A DNA stretch of 25,447 nucleotides from positions 1-25,447 of IMG/VR virus record IMGVR_UViG_3300042448_001664, one strand, 5' to 3'. Of this stretch, positions 2,564 through 12,065 are shown in pieces; position 1 is the stretch's first letter, and the number at the start of each line of letters is the position of its first letter. The notes below the pieces were generated by a model. It made no database searches and was not told the origin of the DNA. It saw only the letters and a list, made by a program, of their open reading frames with translations. Position numbers and translations under genes: made by a program. This DNA is from a virus.

Positions 2564-2564
2564 A
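2548..2564 (+). repeat. 17-bp direct repeat, left copy
   Basis: AAAACGAAAGGCATAAA here is identical to 3415-3431. This copy forms the last codons and stop of the HTH gene and carries the AAAGG ribosome site for the DGQHR gene. The two copies are 867 bp apart and bracket the low-GC gene. Confidence 0.85.
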
Positions 2565-3412
2565 TGAAAACGAAAAATGAATCGGAAGAAATGGCGCTTT
2601 CCTTTGGAAGGCAATCAAAACAATCAAAAGTAGAGCGGTATAAGTGGACAACCAAAGACTCGCCTGGGGAGTATCAACTTATTGATAAAAACTTGTTACT
2701 GATTTCCCCTGAATATCAGAGGGAAAAGGTAACTCTGGATAAGGTGAGAATGGTAGCCCAAGACTGGTCATGGGTTGCCTGTGGAACAATAACTGTTGGC
2801 CTCCGGGCAGGCCAATACTGGGTCATCGATGGCCAGCACCGGGTGCTTGGGGCAAAGCGCAGAGCTGACATAGAATGCCTCCCATGTCTTGTTTTTGATA
2901 CCTACACGGTTCAAGAGGAAGCTAAGGGGTTTTTAAATGTAAACACTGGCCGCAAACCGATCACCAGCATCGATAAATTTCGCGCTGCTCTTGCTGCCGA
3001 CGATGAAATTGCAAGATTCGTTCAAGAAACATTTAACGAATTGGGCGTAGTAGCTAAAGCGACTGCAAATAATCCAAAGGAGATAAAGGCCTTAGATTGG
3101 GCAATAAAACGCGCCACAGAGAATAGGGTCGCTTTTTCACAGGTCTTATCCATGGCCGCTGAACTCTGTGAAAGCATGCCGATACAAAACATCCTTCTGG
3201 ACGGGCTTTATTACATTCATACCCATACTTCTGAAACGATTTACGATAAACGAATTTATCAAAAAATAAAGAAAATAGGGGCAAAAGGGCTTGTCGATGC
3301 GGCAAAGCGAGCCTCGGCATTTTTTGTATCAGGAGGCTCTACCGTGTGGGGCACAGGAATGTTGGAAGAAATTAACAAGGGTTTCCGCGAAAAAATTGCT
3401 TTTATCAAATAA
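2564..3412 (+). CDS. ParB-like DGQHR-domain protein, 282 aa
   Basis: The ATG abuts the previous stop and is preceded by AAAGG (2554-2558). The protein carries ISPEYQREKV at about residues 47-56 and VIDGQHRVLGAKRRADIECL at about 90-109. These match the ParB/DGQHR fold, in which the D-G-x-H-R loop binds nucleotide or phosphate; phage versions have been grouped as DUF6551-like. The rest is helical (TGRKPITSIDKFRAAL, and KKIGAKGLVDAAKRASAFF near the end). Possible roles are CTP-dependent DNA clamping, nuclease action or transcriptional regulation. DNA composition is clearly lower in GC than that of neighbours, and a 17-bp direct repeat brackets the gene, which points to recent acquisition. Confidence 0.8.
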   Translation: MKTKNESEEMALSFGRQSKQSKVERYKWTTKDSPGEYQLIDKNLLLISPEYQREKVTLDKVRMVAQDWSWVACGTITVGLRAGQYWVIDGQHRVLGAKRRADIECLPCLVFDTYTVQEEAKGFLNVNTGRKPITSIDKFRAALAADDEIARFVQETFNELGVVAKATANNPKEIKALDWAIKRATENRVAFSQVLSMAAELCESMPIQNILLDGLYYIHTHTSETIYDKRIYQKIKKIGAKGLVDAAKRASAFFVSGGSTVWGTGMLEEINKGFREKIAFIK

Positions 3413-6508: not shown

Positions 6509-7705
6509 GTGAGCAAGGAAAAAGTTCCGGTAGTGGAGCGGGCGCGCCGGTATGTCTCGAAGATTGGTCCGGCGATTTCTGGGGCTGGTGGGCACACGCA
6601 CACTTTGCTGGTCGCTAAGGCTCTTGTGAAGGGATTTTTGCTTCCGCATTCGGATGCGCTGGCGCTCCTCGAGCAGTGGAACCAGGGGAATGCTGATAAG
6701 TGGACGACGGGAGAACTCGAGCACAAGCTCCGGTCTGCTCTGAATGGTCCTGGGGCGGATGGGTATTTGCTCCAAGGGGCTGAGGCTCCGCAGGGGCAGC
6801 GCTTGGAGCAGCGGCCGGTCAGTAAACCTCGGCCGAAGCCTCAGTTTGATGTGGAGGCGCTGCGGCGAGTGGCTGGGGATTTGGCTGAGGCGGTTGATCT
6901 CCCTTGGCTGGCGAATCGCTCTGAGGTGGATCCGGCGACGGTGTCGGCTGAGGATTTCCTCGCTCGTCTCTATAATGCCTCCGCTGGGGAGCGTGTGGTA
7001 GTTTTTTCGGAGTATAAATCGCAAGGGCAGGCGATCTGGCCGGTGGAGCGGATCCCGACTCGGGGACCGGAGGGGATTTGGTTTCTCGCTCAGCCGGTGG
7101 ATGGTCAGTCTCGCCCGAATCCTCGCCTGGGGAAAATGTCGCGCCGATCGGAGGAGTCGGTGCTGGCTTGGCGCTGGATGGTTCTTGAGAGCGATGAGGC
7201 TCCGGTGCGTTTGTGGCTGGGGGCTTTGGCGCGGCTCGTGCCTAACATCGCGGCCGTTACGACTTCTGGCGGGCGCTCGGTGCATGCTCTGGTGCGCGTC
7301 GATGCCTCGACGAAGCGGGAGTGGGATGAGGCTAAGAGGGCTATCATAAATTTGGTGGTGACTGGGGCGGATCCGGGGGCTCTCTCGGCTGTTCGGTTGA
7401 CTCGACTGCCTGCGTGCTGGCGTGGGCAGAAGGAGCAGAAGCTCCTGTATTTCGCTCCATCGGCACCGGATTTGACGCTCGAGGACATCGTGCCTCGGCG
7501 GGATGTGCTGCGGAATTGGCGTGAGGAGGCCGTGCGTGTCTCAGCGGCAGCGGACAGGGATGGGCAGTATCCGCAACCGGATACGGCGAGGACGGCACAG
7601 GCGTGCCGGTTTTACGGAAAATTTGACGCTTGGCTGCATGACGCGGCGGGCGAACTGGAAAGGCAAATGAAAGGCAATGAGCAAACTGACGGATACAATA
7701 AATAG
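6509..7705 (+). CDS. Primase-like replication protein, 398 aa
   Basis: The start is GTG 6509, preceded by GGGGAGG (6498-6504). The N-terminal ~70 residues (VERARRYVSKIGPAISGAGG, then HTHTLLVAKALVKGF, LLEQWN and WTTGELEHKLRSAL) match the PriCT-like module usually found at the C-terminal side of archaeo-eukaryotic-type primases. Residues ~230-320 look like a RepB/AEP-like primase domain: SGGRSVHALVRVDA with His258, then GADPGALSAVRLTRLPACWR and LLYFAP. It probably primes phage DNA replication together with the helicase encoded next, which it overlaps by 29 nt. The domain order appears swapped relative to the usual one. The acidic metal-binding pair is not certain by eye. Confidence 0.7.
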   Translation: MSKEKVPVVERARRYVSKIGPAISGAGGHTHTLLVAKALVKGFLLPHSDALALLEQWNQGNADKWTTGELEHKLRSALNGPGADGYLLQGAEAPQGQRLEQRPVSKPRPKPQFDVEALRRVAGDLAEAVDLPWLANRSEVDPATVSAEDFLARLYNASAGERVVVFSEYKSQGQAIWPVERIPTRGPEGIWFLAQPVDGQSRPNPRLGKMSRRSEESVLAWRWMVLESDEAPVRLWLGALARLVPNIAAVTTSGGRSVHALVRVDASTKREWDEAKRAIINLVVTGADPGALSAVRLTRLPACWRGQKEQKLLYFAPSAPDLTLEDIVPRRDVLRNWREEAVRVSAAADRDGQYPQPDTARTAQACRFYGKFDAWLHDAAGELERQMKGNEQTDGYNK

Positions 7706-9299
7706 CAAACTGGCTGAATATGGGATTGTTCCTTCCCCAGAGGACAACAACGAAAAGAAGACCGAGGCGGCTGGGTTGCCTTACATCGAGCTTGTGCCGG
7801 TGATCTCGACGATGGCGAGGGAGATCGGCGGCGTGCTGTGCAATAATGGTGTTTTCGTCCGGCAGCGCTCGGCTATGACGATCTCGCAGGATGGCCGACT
7901 GGTCGAGATGTCGGCGCGGCGTTTCCGCACCTACTGCGAGGACCACCTGGTGACTTTCAAGTGGGATGCGACGAAGCCTAATGTGTTTGAGAAAAAGCCA
8001 CAGACGATGACGGTGGAGGCTGCTGCGACGATTCTGGAGAGTGACCAGTTCCTGGCGCGACAACGGGAGCTGATGCGGGTGGCCACGGTGCGGCAGCCGG
8101 TGAAGAGGAAGGATGGCCGGATCGAGTTGCTGGACTACGGATACGACCACGAGGCTCAGACATTCACGCAAAACTCTGGCGTGGAATATGAGATGGATAT
8201 GCCGCTCGATGAGGCTCAGACGATCCTGCGAAATTTCACAAAGGAGTTTCCTTTTGGTGACAGGAAGGCGGATGGCCGGTCGAGGAATGAGGCTATCGTG
8301 ATGACGGCGATGTTGGCGATGTATGCGGCTCCGCTTCTGCGGCCTTCGGCTCGTAGGCTTAATTTTATGTTCAGCTCGAACTCGGTGGGGTCGGGTAAGA
8401 CTCTCCTGGCTCAAATGGCGATCATCACGACCGTCGGGAGTTGCGATGTTCAACCGGTGCCACAGGCTGAGGAGGAGTGGCGGAAGATTTTGGACACGGA
8501 GAGCTTGGCAGGATCCCCTTATATTCTATTCGACGACTGCAATGGGTTTTTCAAAAGCCAGATTCTAAACGCATTCCTCACAGCTCCAACATGGAGCGGC
8601 CGCCGAATGCACAGCCAGCAGAAGTTCGCGGTGCCTAAGATCGCCAGTGTGTTTCTGACTGGTAACAACCTGGAGGTCTCGCCCGATGTGGCTCGCAGAT
8701 TTTTGCACTGCAAGATGATGACAGACGAGTCGGACCCTCAGGCGCGTCGGATCGAGAAGGTCATCTCAGATGAACACCTGGAGAAGCCTGAGGTGCGTGG
8801 GCAAATCCTCGCCGCCTTGTGGGCTGTGGTGCGGGAATGGGACGCCGCAGGCCGTCCGCAGGCAAACCGCTTGGTGCGTGGATATGAGCAATTCTGTCAG
8901 ATATTCGCGGGAATGGTTGAGTTCGCCGGGTTCGGAGATCCGATCGAGCCGCTGCCGGTCGAAGAGTCCGGCAACTCAGAACTCGCTGACATGATGGCTC
9001 TGGTGGCTGAGTTGGCAAAAGGAGTGGATGATGTGGCAGAGTTCTCCTTCCAAGATGTTGTCCAGGCAGCGCTCGACTGCAACTCATTCGTCTGGATGCT
9101 GGAAGGTAAGGAGGAGCGAGAAGGTAAGGACGGCCCTCGCCATTATGTTCTCACGGCAAAGGCCAAGAGCAAGTTCGGGAAGCTGCTTGCCGAGCAGTAT
9201 GGCGGCAAGAAGTTCACTTTGCCTACCGGACGTGTGGTCAAGTGGGGCCAGCAAGGAAAGAACCGCCAGCGCCTCTACACGCTCACCGTCCTTAACTAA
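7677..9299 (+). CDS. P-loop replication helicase/ATPase, 540 aa
   Basis: It starts inside the end of the primase gene. Motifs in order: Walker A SNSVGSGKT at about residues 234-242, Walker B YILFDDC at about 282-288, a sensor-1-like FLTGNN at about 325-330 and a likely arginine finger in DVARRF at about 336-341. This layout suits an AAA+/superfamily-3-like hexameric helicase of phage and plasmid replicons. The N-terminal 200 residues lack a clear motif, and the C-terminal ~100 residues (YVLTAKAKSKFGKLLAEQYGG and the final VKWGQQGKNRQRLYTLTVL) look like a winged-helix DNA-binding tail. With the primase gene it forms a two-gene replication module ended by the terminator at 9319. Confidence 0.8.
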   Translation: MSKLTDTINSKLAEYGIVPSPEDNNEKKTEAAGLPYIELVPVISTMAREIGGVLCNNGVFVRQRSAMTISQDGRLVEMSARRFRTYCEDHLVTFKWDATKPNVFEKKPQTMTVEAAATILESDQFLARQRELMRVATVRQPVKRKDGRIELLDYGYDHEAQTFTQNSGVEYEMDMPLDEAQTILRNFTKEFPFGDRKADGRSRNEAIVMTAMLAMYAAPLLRPSARRLNFMFSSNSVGSGKTLLAQMAIITTVGSCDVQPVPQAEEEWRKILDTESLAGSPYILFDDCNGFFKSQILNAFLTAPTWSGRRMHSQQKFAVPKIASVFLTGNNLEVSPDVARRFLHCKMMTDESDPQARRIEKVISDEHLEKPEVRGQILAALWAVVREWDAAGRPQANRLVRGYEQFCQIFAGMVEFAGFGDPIEPLPVEESGNSELADMMALVAELAKGVDDVAEFSFQDVVQAALDCNSFVWMLEGKEEREGKDGPRHYVLTAKAKSKFGKLLAEQYGGKKFTLPTGRVVKWGQQGKNRQRLYTLTVLN

Positions 9300-9318: not shown

Positions 9319-9350
9319 AAGGCCCGCCAACTCGGCGGGCCTTTTTGTTT
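9319..9350 (+). terminator. Rho-independent terminator after replication module
   Basis: A perfect 10-bp stem, AAGGCCCGCC and GGCGGGCCTT with loop AACTC, is followed by TTTTTGTTT-type uridines. It lies 20 nt downstream of the helicase stop and separates early replication genes from the packaging region. Confidence 0.93.
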
Positions 9351-9707
9351 CCGCACAGGTCATGCGCAGGTCATCGCGCTTCCACTTCTTCATCACCCAT
9401 CCCACACCCTTTTTGATAGAGATTGCACGCGACCTATGCACCTACGCAGCACCTTGTCTCTTTAGCTGGCTCACAAGTTGTTTGCCAAGAGTTTCGTGCG
9501 TTTCTGTTCTGCAAGGTGGCATAGGTAGCATAGGTCTTCTGAGTTTTTTATTTATGGGTGTGGGTATCGTCAGAGAGAAAAGTTTTCGACCTGCGCACCT
9601 GTGCTTCGAGTTCTCCAAGTTCCGCGTGAAAGGAATCTCTTCGCGGGGTTCGAACATGCAGTTTGCCCGTCTCCCGTAATTTTTGAGAGAGCGCGCTTGA
9701 AACTATA

Positions 9708-9746
9708 CGGAACCGGAACCGAGGAACCCGTTCCGCTTCCGTTCCG
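9708..9746 (+). terminator. Hairpin just before the TTTGACAA element
   Basis: CGGAAC (9708-9713) and GGAA (9715-9718) pair with TTCC (9737-9740) and GTTCCG (9741-9746), with one bulged C. The hairpin ends exactly where TTTGACAA begins, so its short T run is the start of the late-gene element. Terminator function is uncertain because only three T residues follow. Confidence 0.4.
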
Positions 9747-9754
9747 TTTGACAA
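9747..9754 (+). promoter_or_regulatory. Late-gene element TTTGACA, copy 1
   Basis: TTTGACAA lies 21 nt upstream of the terS ATG (9776) and directly after a hairpin. It is the first of nine start-associated copies in the late region. Confidence 0.5.
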
Positions 9755-9775
9755 TTCGTCGTTCCGTAAACACCT

Positions 9776-10375
9776 ATGCGTCACGGAAGGGAACAAGCGG
9801 ACCTCATCAAGGCATGTGCGGCCAAGCACGGCGTGACAACTCGTGCCGTGCGCAAGTGGCGCGACTCGGCGGATCCGCGATGGAATGGATTTCTGGCTGA
9901 CCGGGCGGTCGCCGGGATGGTGCCGATGGGGGCAGCGGCACCGGCTCAGGCGGCGGCCGGTCCGGTAAGGGAGTGGACTGATGAGGAATTGGCGCTCGAT
10001 AACCAGGTGCGGAAGATGAAGGAGGCCACGGCCGACCTGCGGGAGCGGGCGGAACTTGCCAAGCTCACCGGCGACCTGGATGCGGAGATGGCGCTCAGGC
10101 GCATGTGGCTCCAGCATGCCGAGGCGTTGCGCCGGTTAGAAAAGGACGCGCCCTCGATCCAGCGGGAGTCTGGAGACATGGTGCCTCGCAAGGTTGCTAT
10201 CCAGCTCGTCATTCAATACTCGGCAGCCATCGCGGCTGCCGTCACAAATTTACCCGACCGGCTGCTCTCCCTGCTGCCGCAGGTGGGCGATGACATTGCC
10301 TCAAAGGTCCGCGCCGAGACCGATGAGATCATGCGCGCGGCGAAGGACATAAGACTCGATGCCCTCGCTTCTTGA
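9776..10375 (+). CDS. Terminase small subunit, Nu1-like by position, 199 aa
   Basis: The first ~40 residues form a basic helix-turn-helix (DLIKACAAKHGVTTRAVRKW), which would recognise the packaging site. An Ala/Pro linker follows, then long helices typical of oligomerisation (QVRKMKEATADLRERAELAK) and an amphipathic C-terminus that likely contacts the large subunit. It lies directly upstream of and overlaps a GpA-type TerL gene by 17 nt, as Nu1 precedes A in lambda. Its start codon overlaps the ninth ACCTRYGC box, so the protein may bind its own gene start. The family call rests on HTH, size and position. Confidence 0.8.
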   Translation: MRHGREQADLIKACAAKHGVTTRAVRKWRDSADPRWNGFLADRAVAGMVPMGAAAPAQAAAGPVREWTDEELALDNQVRKMKEATADLRERAELAKLTGDLDAEMALRRMWLQHAEALRRLEKDAPSIQRESGDMVPRKVAIQLVIQYSAAIAAAVTNLPDRLLSLLPQVGDDIASKVRAETDEIMRAAKDIRLDALAS

Positions 10376-12065
10376 AGAGCTCCAAGAGCAGCTCGACCGG
10401 ATCTGGGACCCCGGTCGCCGGCCGACCGCTTTGGAGTGGGCTCAGGAGAATGTCACTCTCGACAAGCGCTTCTCGCCACGACCTGGTCGCTACGATGCCG
10501 ACTACACGCCTTATCTCCGGCAGCTCCACTTGTGGTTCTCGGATCCGAAAATCCGTCAGCTCACTTTTGTGAAGTCCGCTCAGGTCGGAGGAACCACCTG
10601 GTTGGCGAACTGCCTCATGTGGGCGATCTCGGAAGACCCCGGCCCGATCTTGTATGTGACCAGCACCAACGAAAACGCAAAGTCGTGGTCCGAGCGCGAA
10701 CTCCATCCGCGCCTCCGCTCCTGCCAGGCGATCAAGCACCTGCTCCCTTCAAACGACGACGACTTCCGCAAGACCGAGATGCACTTCTCCACCTGCACGA
10801 TCAAGCTCGTCGGTGCCTGTTCCGAGGGTAATTTGGCAAGTCGCGCAATCCGCTACCTTTTCGCCGATGAGGTCGACAAATGGCCAGACGACTCATCCCT
10901 CGAGGCCCCAGCGCTCGAGCTTGCCATGGCTCGCCTCAATTTCTACCGGCGCGTCTCGAAGGCCTGCCTCACCTCCACACCTACCGTGGAGACCGGCGCG
11001 ATCTGGCAGCAATTCCTCGCCGGGAGCCAGCACCGCTTCCATGTTCCATGTCCCGAGTGTGGCCACGCACAAGCCCTGCGCTTCGAGCAACTCAAGTGGC
11101 CCGAGCACCACCGCGATCTCGCCGCCCAATGGGATCTCGCCGGGGTCGAGCGCGACACCACCTATGCCTGCGAGTCATGCGAAGCCCGCTGGCCTCAGTC
11201 CATGCAGAGCGACATCATCCGCCGTGGCGAGTGGGTCGCCTCAAATCCCCGCGCCCACGCCGACCACATCTCCTGCCACATCTCCGCGCTTTATTCCCCG
11301 CAGCTCTCCTGGGGCGACCTCGCCCGCATCTTCCTCCAAAAAAAAGAAACCCCCGGCGGCCTCCACGATTTCCACAATAACTTCCTCGGTATCCCGTGGG
11401 AAAACCGTGCCGCCACCGTCAAGGACGATGCCATCCTCGCCCTTCGCTCGCCGTACTACCGACTGCGCGAGCTCCCCGTCGAGCCACTCGTGCTCACCCT
11501 CTGCGCCGACCCCGGCGAACGCCAGACCCACTGGACCGTCGAGGCCCGGATCCAGAGCGGTGAGTCGTGGGTCATCGATTACGGCACCGTCCTCGCCATC
11601 GAGGACCTCATCTCGCCAGCGTTCCTCGAGGCTCGCCGCTACGCCTTTGGCGAAAAAATCTTCACCCCCCGCTTCGGCCTCATCGACTCCGGCTGGAGTG
11701 CCGAGCGTGTTTACTCCATCTGCTCCCGCAGCGGCGGCCTGTTCATCCCATCCAAAGGCTCCACCGCAGCCTTCGGCACATGGAACCAATCCGCCATCAA
11801 CGGCTACCCTGGCCTGCGCCTCGTCACCTACATCGACCACACCGCGAAGCTCGAGCTCTACCTCGAGCGCATCAATAAAAAGATGCCCCCACCGCTCCAT
11901 CTCCCTGCCGACATCGGCCAAGACTTCGTCTCAGGCCACAGTGGCCAACAACTCCTTCAAAACAAAAACTCCCGCCTAGCTCCCTTCTTCTGGAAAAAAG
12001 TCCCCGAAGATCACTACGGCGACTGCTCGAAACTCCACGGAGTCGCGTGGTGGGTCCTGAAATAA
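10359..12065 (+). CDS. Terminase large subunit, GpA family, 568 aa
   Basis: This is the ATP-driven DNA packaging motor and nuclease. Visible motifs: Walker A-like KSAQVGGTT at about residues 72-80, Walker B YLFADEVDKW at about 167-176, coupling motif STPT after it, and two Cys pairs (CPECGH near 230, CESCEA near 270) of the zinc insert typical of GpA. The C-terminal nuclease region shows acidic residues in CADPGE (~381) and LIDSGW (~440). Walker A has GGTT where many family members have GKTE, so the usual P-loop lysine is absent at that position. Length is near the lambda gpA norm of about 640. GpA terminases normally cut cos sites, which supports a cos in the upstream region. Confidence 0.93.
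   Translation: MPSLLEELQEQLDRIWDPGRRPTALEWAQENVTLDKRFSPRPGRYDADYTPYLRQLHLWFSDPKIRQLTFVKSAQVGGTTWLANCLMWAISEDPGPILYVTSTNENAKSWSERELHPRLRSCQAIKHLLPSNDDDFRKTEMHFSTCTIKLVGACSEGNLASRAIRYLFADEVDKWPDDSSLEAPALELAMARLNFYRRVSKACLTSTPTVETGAIWQQFLAGSQHRFHVPCPECGHAQALRFEQLKWPEHHRDLAAQWDLAGVERDTTYACESCEARWPQSMQSDIIRRGEWVASNPRAHADHISCHISALYSPQLSWGDLARIFLQKKETPGGLHDFHNNFLGIPWENRAATVKDDAILALRSPYYRLRELPVEPLVLTLCADPGERQTHWTVEARIQSGESWVIDYGTVLAIEDLISPAFLEARRYAFGEKIFTPRFGLIDSGWSAERVYSICSRSGGLFIPSKGSTAAFGTWNQSAINGYPGLRLVTYIDHTAKLELYLERINKKMPPPLHLPADIGQDFVSGHSGQQLLQNKNSRLAPFFWKKVPEDHYGDCSKLHGVAWWVLK

Follow-up and report, generated by a model that had tools for sequence, protein, structure and literature searches.

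The window analysed here comprises the 25,447 nucleotides of the viral record IMGVR_UViG_3300042448_001664 in IMG/VR, and carries on its plus strand a primase gene, a helicase gene, a block of short repeated boxes and the two terminase genes in succession. The primase gene (6509-7705, 398 aa) matches PHROG 2597 'DNA primase' (E 5e-13) and is followed by a helicase gene of 540 aa (7677-9299; PHROGs 10537, 29234 and 19930), the product of which is a proposed self-loading initiator and the candidate binder of the boxes. An intrinsic terminator on the plus strand (9319-9343), made of a 10-bp stem and a subsequent T run and kept in most relatives, closes this early operon. Downstream lie terS (9776-10375), encoding a small terminase subunit of 199 aa that is recognized by a weak PHROG 57 match and by its position before TerL, and terL (10359-12065), encoding the large subunit (PHROG 15, E 3e-108), whose earlier assignment to the GpA family agrees with its Pfam matches to GpA_ATPase (E 2e-56) and GpA_nuclease (E 3e-18). 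The first box starts approximately 54 bp past the helicase stop codon. The first-pass annotation had described the boxes as situated in a non-coding block between a strong terminator and terS; the terminator is the one mentioned above, and the region from the helicase stop to terS indeed looks non-coding, as constraint in relatives is confined to the boxes and the cos elements. Rfam and tRNA searches yielded no RNA structure or tRNA match.

Re-scanning of the window recovered the nine previously reported ACCTRYGC boxes, all with correct coordinates and orientations. The window contains 13 exact matches to this motif compared to 2.6 expected, a number reached in none of 100 shuffles, and eight boxes are concentrated inside 260 bp, a span in which Markov shuffles (n=500) never placed more than 3; the matches elsewhere in the window (6108, 11160, 12513 and 20214) are at chance level. 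Boxes 1-8 are organized, as proposed, in four close pairs on alternating strands (- + - +), each pair being a direct tandem repeat with a spacing of 11, 8, 9 and 8 bp for pairs 1 to 4, respectively. Pair 1 (9353-9371, minus strand) and pair 4 (9589-9604, plus strand) both consist of ACCTGCGC and ACCTGTGC, and the mirrored variants that had been noticed in these two pairs are genuine: the two pairs share both variants, in identical order on opposite strands. Pair 2 (9432-9447, plus strand) consists of ACCTATGC and ACCTACGC followed by a degenerate third copy, and pair 3 (9519-9535, minus strand) of two copies of ACCTATGC with a degenerate third copy just to its left. The outer pairs are of a G-type and point outward, the inner pairs are of an A-type and point inward, and the array as a whole has a near mirror symmetry about position 9480 (pair midpoints 9362, 9439.5, 9527 and 9596.5). 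The stretch between pairs 3 and 4 (9536-9588) is richer in A+T than the window (62% vs 41%) and is a candidate unwinding element.

A protein search with TerS retrieved 35 viral contigs, and the region upstream of terS could be aligned in 17 distinct sequences. Comparison of the block across these related phages, which had been put forward as a check on the boxes, revealed that boxes 1-8 are kept in register throughout the 17 sequences, pairs 1 and 4 included, with a column identity of 93% in the boxes vs 72% between them (p 7e-13). Pair 3 is the most conserved pair, the block 9519-9538 being 97% identical over the 17 sequences, and the third copy beside pairs 2 and 3, degenerate in the window, is complete in some of the relatives, namely L008, L029, L030 and L129. 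The 135 aligned boxes give ACC[T/C]NYGC as consensus; hence the single consensus initially proposed for all nine boxes describes exact matches in the window, but the relatives favour this broader form as the better fit. Box 9 (9772-9779, plus strand), which had been counted as a member of the array, overlaps the terS start codon, reaches 66% identity and is not kept in the relatives. It was excluded from the array on account of this lack of conservation, and its match to the motif is coincidental.

The termini of metagenomic contigs allowed the location of a cos site next to the boxes. Thirteen contigs have an end no more than 250 bp upstream of terS, and nine of them start at one identical base, TGCA^GTTTG, equivalent to window position 9661; two further contigs from a distant group start at this same base, bringing the number of left ends to 11; these contigs stem from different metagenomes. 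On the other side, the ends of contigs L056 and L104 both fall precisely 12 nt beyond this base, at GTTTGCCAGTCG. As end repair fills in 5' overhangs, the cohesive sequence of a 5' cos phage turns up at either end of its contig, and genome ends of this kind are put by assemblers at contig limits (PMC5557969). The shared left-end base together with the two right ends 12 nt further thus indicates a lambda-like cos with 12-nt 5' cohesive ends (GTTTGCCCGTCT), placed in the window by homology at 9661-9672, with the cut at 9660/9661 and, by inference, at 9672/9673. The complete cosN, TGCA^GTTTGCCCGTCT, spans 9657-9672 on the plus strand. No single contig was found to carry the terminal repeat at its two ends; the contigs tested have one cos end each.

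The elements flanking this cosN follow the lambda layout cosQ-cosN-cosB (PMC4669245, PMC5557969), and it is by analogy with lambda that cosQ and cosB roles are proposed for them. A conserved AAGGAATCTYTT is present 20 bp left of the cut, in the position of cosQ; the cosQ-like element AAGGAATCTCTT (9629-9640, plus strand), equally 20 bp left of the cut, is kept in the relatives, in box-less distant relatives and in Akkermansia phage Moulinsart. The position of cosB, from the cut to terS, is occupied by CGGAAC/CGTTCCG repeats (9705-9768, plus strand), and the segment 9705-9747 is 92% identical over the 17 sequences. In the distant group, which has a different TerS, CGTTCAATA repeats take the place of CGTTCCG between cut and terS. 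Given that L089 possesses CGTTCAATA and not CGTTCCG, the repeats vary along with TerS, and the CGTTCCG repeats are probably the sites to which TerS binds; in lambda, the TerS sites are located in cosB within 120 bp of cosN (PMC4669245). The window thus resembles lambda in its 12-nt 5' cohesive ends, its GpA-family TerL, the conserved element approximately 20 bp left of the cut and the repeats from cut to terS. It differs from lambda in an unrelated cosN sequence, in having CGTTCCG as cosB-like repeat and in the proposed origin directly on the cosQ side.

Distant relatives dissociate the boxes from this cos site. The cos core (AAGGAATCTTTT, GTGCAGTTTGCCAGTCG and neighbouring positions) is present in L077, L089, L100 and L104, but none of the four has boxes near it, and their DNA left of the cos core looks coding. 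Where sequence is available, the TerL of this group is 37% identical to that of the window, and their TerS has no detectable relationship to it. L089, the one among them with a long upstream sequence, has no detectable homologue of the window primase or helicase there. Since the box-less L104 is, together with L056, a contig that stops exactly at the right terminus, cleavage at cos needs no boxes. The reverse arrangement is seen in L150 (helicase 72%), in which box pairs 1 and 2 are present directly 3' of the helicase gene and are followed by another open reading frame; the 330 bp that remain up to the contig end contain no cos. Across genomes the array follows the helicase gene and not other modules: both primase and helicase are directly upstream in every box-bearing relative whose sequence extends that far, and the array is absent from relatives that have the same cos and another replication module.

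An AlphaFold model of the helicase was of modest confidence (pLDDT 63.5). Its best PDB matches in Foldseek were SaPI5 PriRep1 with dsDNA (7pds, E 1.6e-5), the NrS-1 helicase (6lrb) and the SaPI5 primase-helicase (7ola), with E-values ranging from 1.6e-5 to 5e-4 and a low TM-score of approximately 0.27, which is informative on the level of family and not of detail. At that level, the predicted structure resembles the SaPI5 PriRep1 and NrS-1 helicases and may be of the D5/SF3-like initiator fold; sequence searches of Pfam and PDB gave no meaningful match and did not find the SaPI family. The Rep helicases of SaPIs (S. aureus pathogenicity islands, with self-loading Rep/PriRep) use their C-terminal domain to recognise iterons that immediately follow the helicase gene, and seem to act as two hexamers (PMC7581432); the origin of the archaeal plasmid pRN1 is located just 3' of its primase-helicase gene, past a terminator (PMC4234260). 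The window shares with the SaPI and the related SCCmec Cch2 origins the short iterons directly 3' of the helicase gene, and with SaPIs also a primase gene adjoining the helicase gene; a fold like that of SaPI5 PriRep1 is a possible further common feature, and two hexamers, as described for SaPIs (PMC7581432), would suit its facing box groups. Unlike SaPIs, the window belongs to a tailed phage of Verrucomicrobiota and its array adjoins cos; moreover, its iterons are ACCYNYGC in four alternating groups, the proteins lack detectable sequence homology, and binding in the window is proposed by analogy. As for the origins of phage P4 (alpha protein, iterons) and pRN1, in both of which a primase-helicase recognises its own origin, the 3' arrangement of the window matches that of pRN1. 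P4 alpha, however, is a single polypeptide whose primase is of the bacterial type, whereas primase and helicase are separate genes in the window, and pRN1 has a stem-loop where the window has iterons.

A parallel array was found in L089, which may serve by analogy as a model for such arrays in a phage that shares the cos core of the window. The primase-helicase of L089 belongs to the P4 family, matching the P4-family primase model TIGR01613 as well as Pfam D5_N, DUF5906 and PriCT_2; profile comparison of this enzyme with the window helicase detected no homology. Nine 9-bp iterons begin approximately 20 bp past its stop codon, 3.3 kb from cos, in groups of two minus and two plus, then three plus, and finally two minus, arranged around DNA of 65-68% A+T. 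A k-mer array scan found this array and missed that of the window because of its degenerate letters, and was not used for counting; most of the 74 matches of a pattern search are attributable to chance. The array is present downstream of the primase-helicase gene in 17 relatives of the L089 family (L179-L195), in which nearly all iterons within a genome change jointly, to GCCGG, GCGGG, GCAGG or GCGGC. Out of 137 variable columns of the protein, residue 787, near the C-terminus, is the sole one to match iteron type perfectly (17/17; K, N, I and S). In a tree of residues 1-745 the iteron types are interleaved, requiring at least seven changes for both type and residue, and proteins 99.6% identical over these residues can differ in iteron type. 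Iteron type is matched less closely by the columns nearer to the array (799, 803 and 808), an argument against linkage alone. The association comes from 17 sequences whose tree has poor support, from few independent pairs and from a site close to the array, and that residue 787 sets the iteron type is thus a strong lead from these sequences, in which linkage may still have some share. An AlphaFold model of the C-terminal domain of the L089 enzyme, a possible winged helix, had a pLDDT of 37.5 and was discarded.

Taking these comparisons together with the analogy to known systems, we consider it likely that boxes 1-8 (9353-9604) are the iterons of a phage replication origin, bound by the helicase of the adjacent gene and separate from the cos beside them. 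The helicase, whose gene ends at 9299, would bind boxes 1-8, probably via its C-terminal domain, for which the covariation of residue 787 in the L089 family offers indirect support, and two facing hexamers would assemble on the mirror-symmetric array; the A+T-richer DNA between box groups (9536-9588) would then melt and the partner primase (6509-7705) would start synthesis. The GpA-family terminase would cut at these two positions, 9660/9661 and 9672/9673, to generate the 12-nt 5' cohesive ends. Because the cos cut lies between the boxes and terS, the origin would be situated in virion DNA approximately 70-320 bp from the right end, with terS at the opposite, left end. The first-pass annotation had left the choice between a cos/pac site and an origin: a lambda-type cos does adjoin terS, but the cut lies outside boxes 1-8, and it is the origin alternative that the relatives support for these boxes. 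A GC-skew switch, suggested earlier as a test for an origin, turned out as a plus-to-minus flip at the block, which is the sign of a terminus and the opposite of that of an origin, and weighs against the origin reading. The GC skew of phages often follows gene content.

The boxes might alternatively belong to the packaging site, as an enlarged cosB/cosQ located beyond cosN whose alternating pairs TerS would bind. They lie upstream of terS, with the mapped cut 57-308 bp away; a weak wHTH-like match (MerR) was obtained for TerS, and within the family of the window itself boxes and TerS are found together. Distant relatives, however, keep the cos core and a GpA TerL without boxes, which leads us to conclude from these alignments that the boxes are not the packaging site, and in L150 they adjoin the helicase gene and are separated by a further open frame from any cos there may be. 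Moreover, cosB of lambda, with its TerS sites, is on the Nu1-gene side of cosN, a side on which the window has conserved repeats of its own that differ when TerS differs. We consider the packaging explanation improbable, and hardly less so the possibility that the array, be it an origin or a regulatory array, is bound by the short HTH protein encoded at 1862-2563 and not by the helicase, which is unlikely as well. The C-terminal half of this protein, containing its HTH, is kept in 14/14 box-bearing genomes tested, and no match to it was found in the box-less L089. On the other hand, its gene is 7 kb away from the boxes, the array sequence in the L089 family tracks a residue of a primase-helicase, and in documented relatives of the helicase fold it is the C-terminal domain of the helicase itself that binds the downstream iterons (PMC7581432).

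Still more improbable, to the point of being far-fetched, is a function as operators of a transcription switch for the late genes, acting via a conserved TTTGACA element before terS. The position of the boxes upstream of terS and of this element would fit such a role, but they are 145-400 bp from TTTGACA and are separated from it by cos in virion DNA; furthermore, a promoter scan predicted no sigma-70 promoter in the block, and TTTGACA, or an element resembling it, persists in relatives that lack the boxes. The boxes are a real and well-conserved feature, for which the most likely interpretation is a replication origin of a generally known type in a new form, adjoining a cos that this analysis has located. 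A broader proposal, which we put forward as a tentative one with the odds against it, is that one C-terminal helicase residue sets which iteron is read, that nearly the whole array switches with it, and that in the window lineage this origin has become fused end to end with cos as one block. The result on the L089 family predicts a one-residue code for origin recognition at position 787 of its primase-helicase, with K, N, I and S for CCGGA, CGGGA, CAGGA and CGGCA, respectively. If true, a switchable origin address would turn near-identical phages into incompatible replicons, and switching might offer an escape from origin-targeting nucleases or parasites; Odn, for example, acts against PLE iterons (PMC8263062).

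The literature yielded no described origin for this phage group, and the present analysis provides a concrete origin candidate and cos for phages known from metagenomes and two Verrucomicrobiota genome bins alone. Two elements of the approach are reusable: metagenome contig ends mark genome ends, and an array that tracks one gene and not its neighbours points to its likely binding partner. A search with the helicase led to a Chthoniobacter flavus bin that has this layout and to a Spartobacteria bin that contains the helicase gene, and on the basis of these matches the host is probably a member of the Verrucomicrobiota; the assignment of L150 to a 'Burkholderiaceae' bin is likely a misbinning. 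In L150, the open reading frame after box group 2 is on the minus strand at 9759-10096. By TerL, the nearest named phage is Akkermansia phage Moulinsart (L045, ON453896.1; 36%), which has AAGGAATCTCTT at 317-328, approximately 180 bp before the gene in terS position, and short tandem repeats upstream of it at 151-209; its record is cut at att sites, and its cos is probably near its AAGGAATCTCTT. Contig IMGVR_UViG_3300043424_000660 (L167/L174), whose start coincides with a cos left end, has another cos of different sequence approximately 35.1 kb later and probably results from the joining of two related phages. A ParB-like/DUF6551 protein (window 2564-3412) was ruled out as box binder, as it is absent from 12 of the 14 box-bearing genomes; occurring in the other two only, it is probably an accessory gene. 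Finally, the window encodes at 21-674 a protein of the Bro-N/anti-repressor (Ant) family, which suggests a temperate lifestyle.
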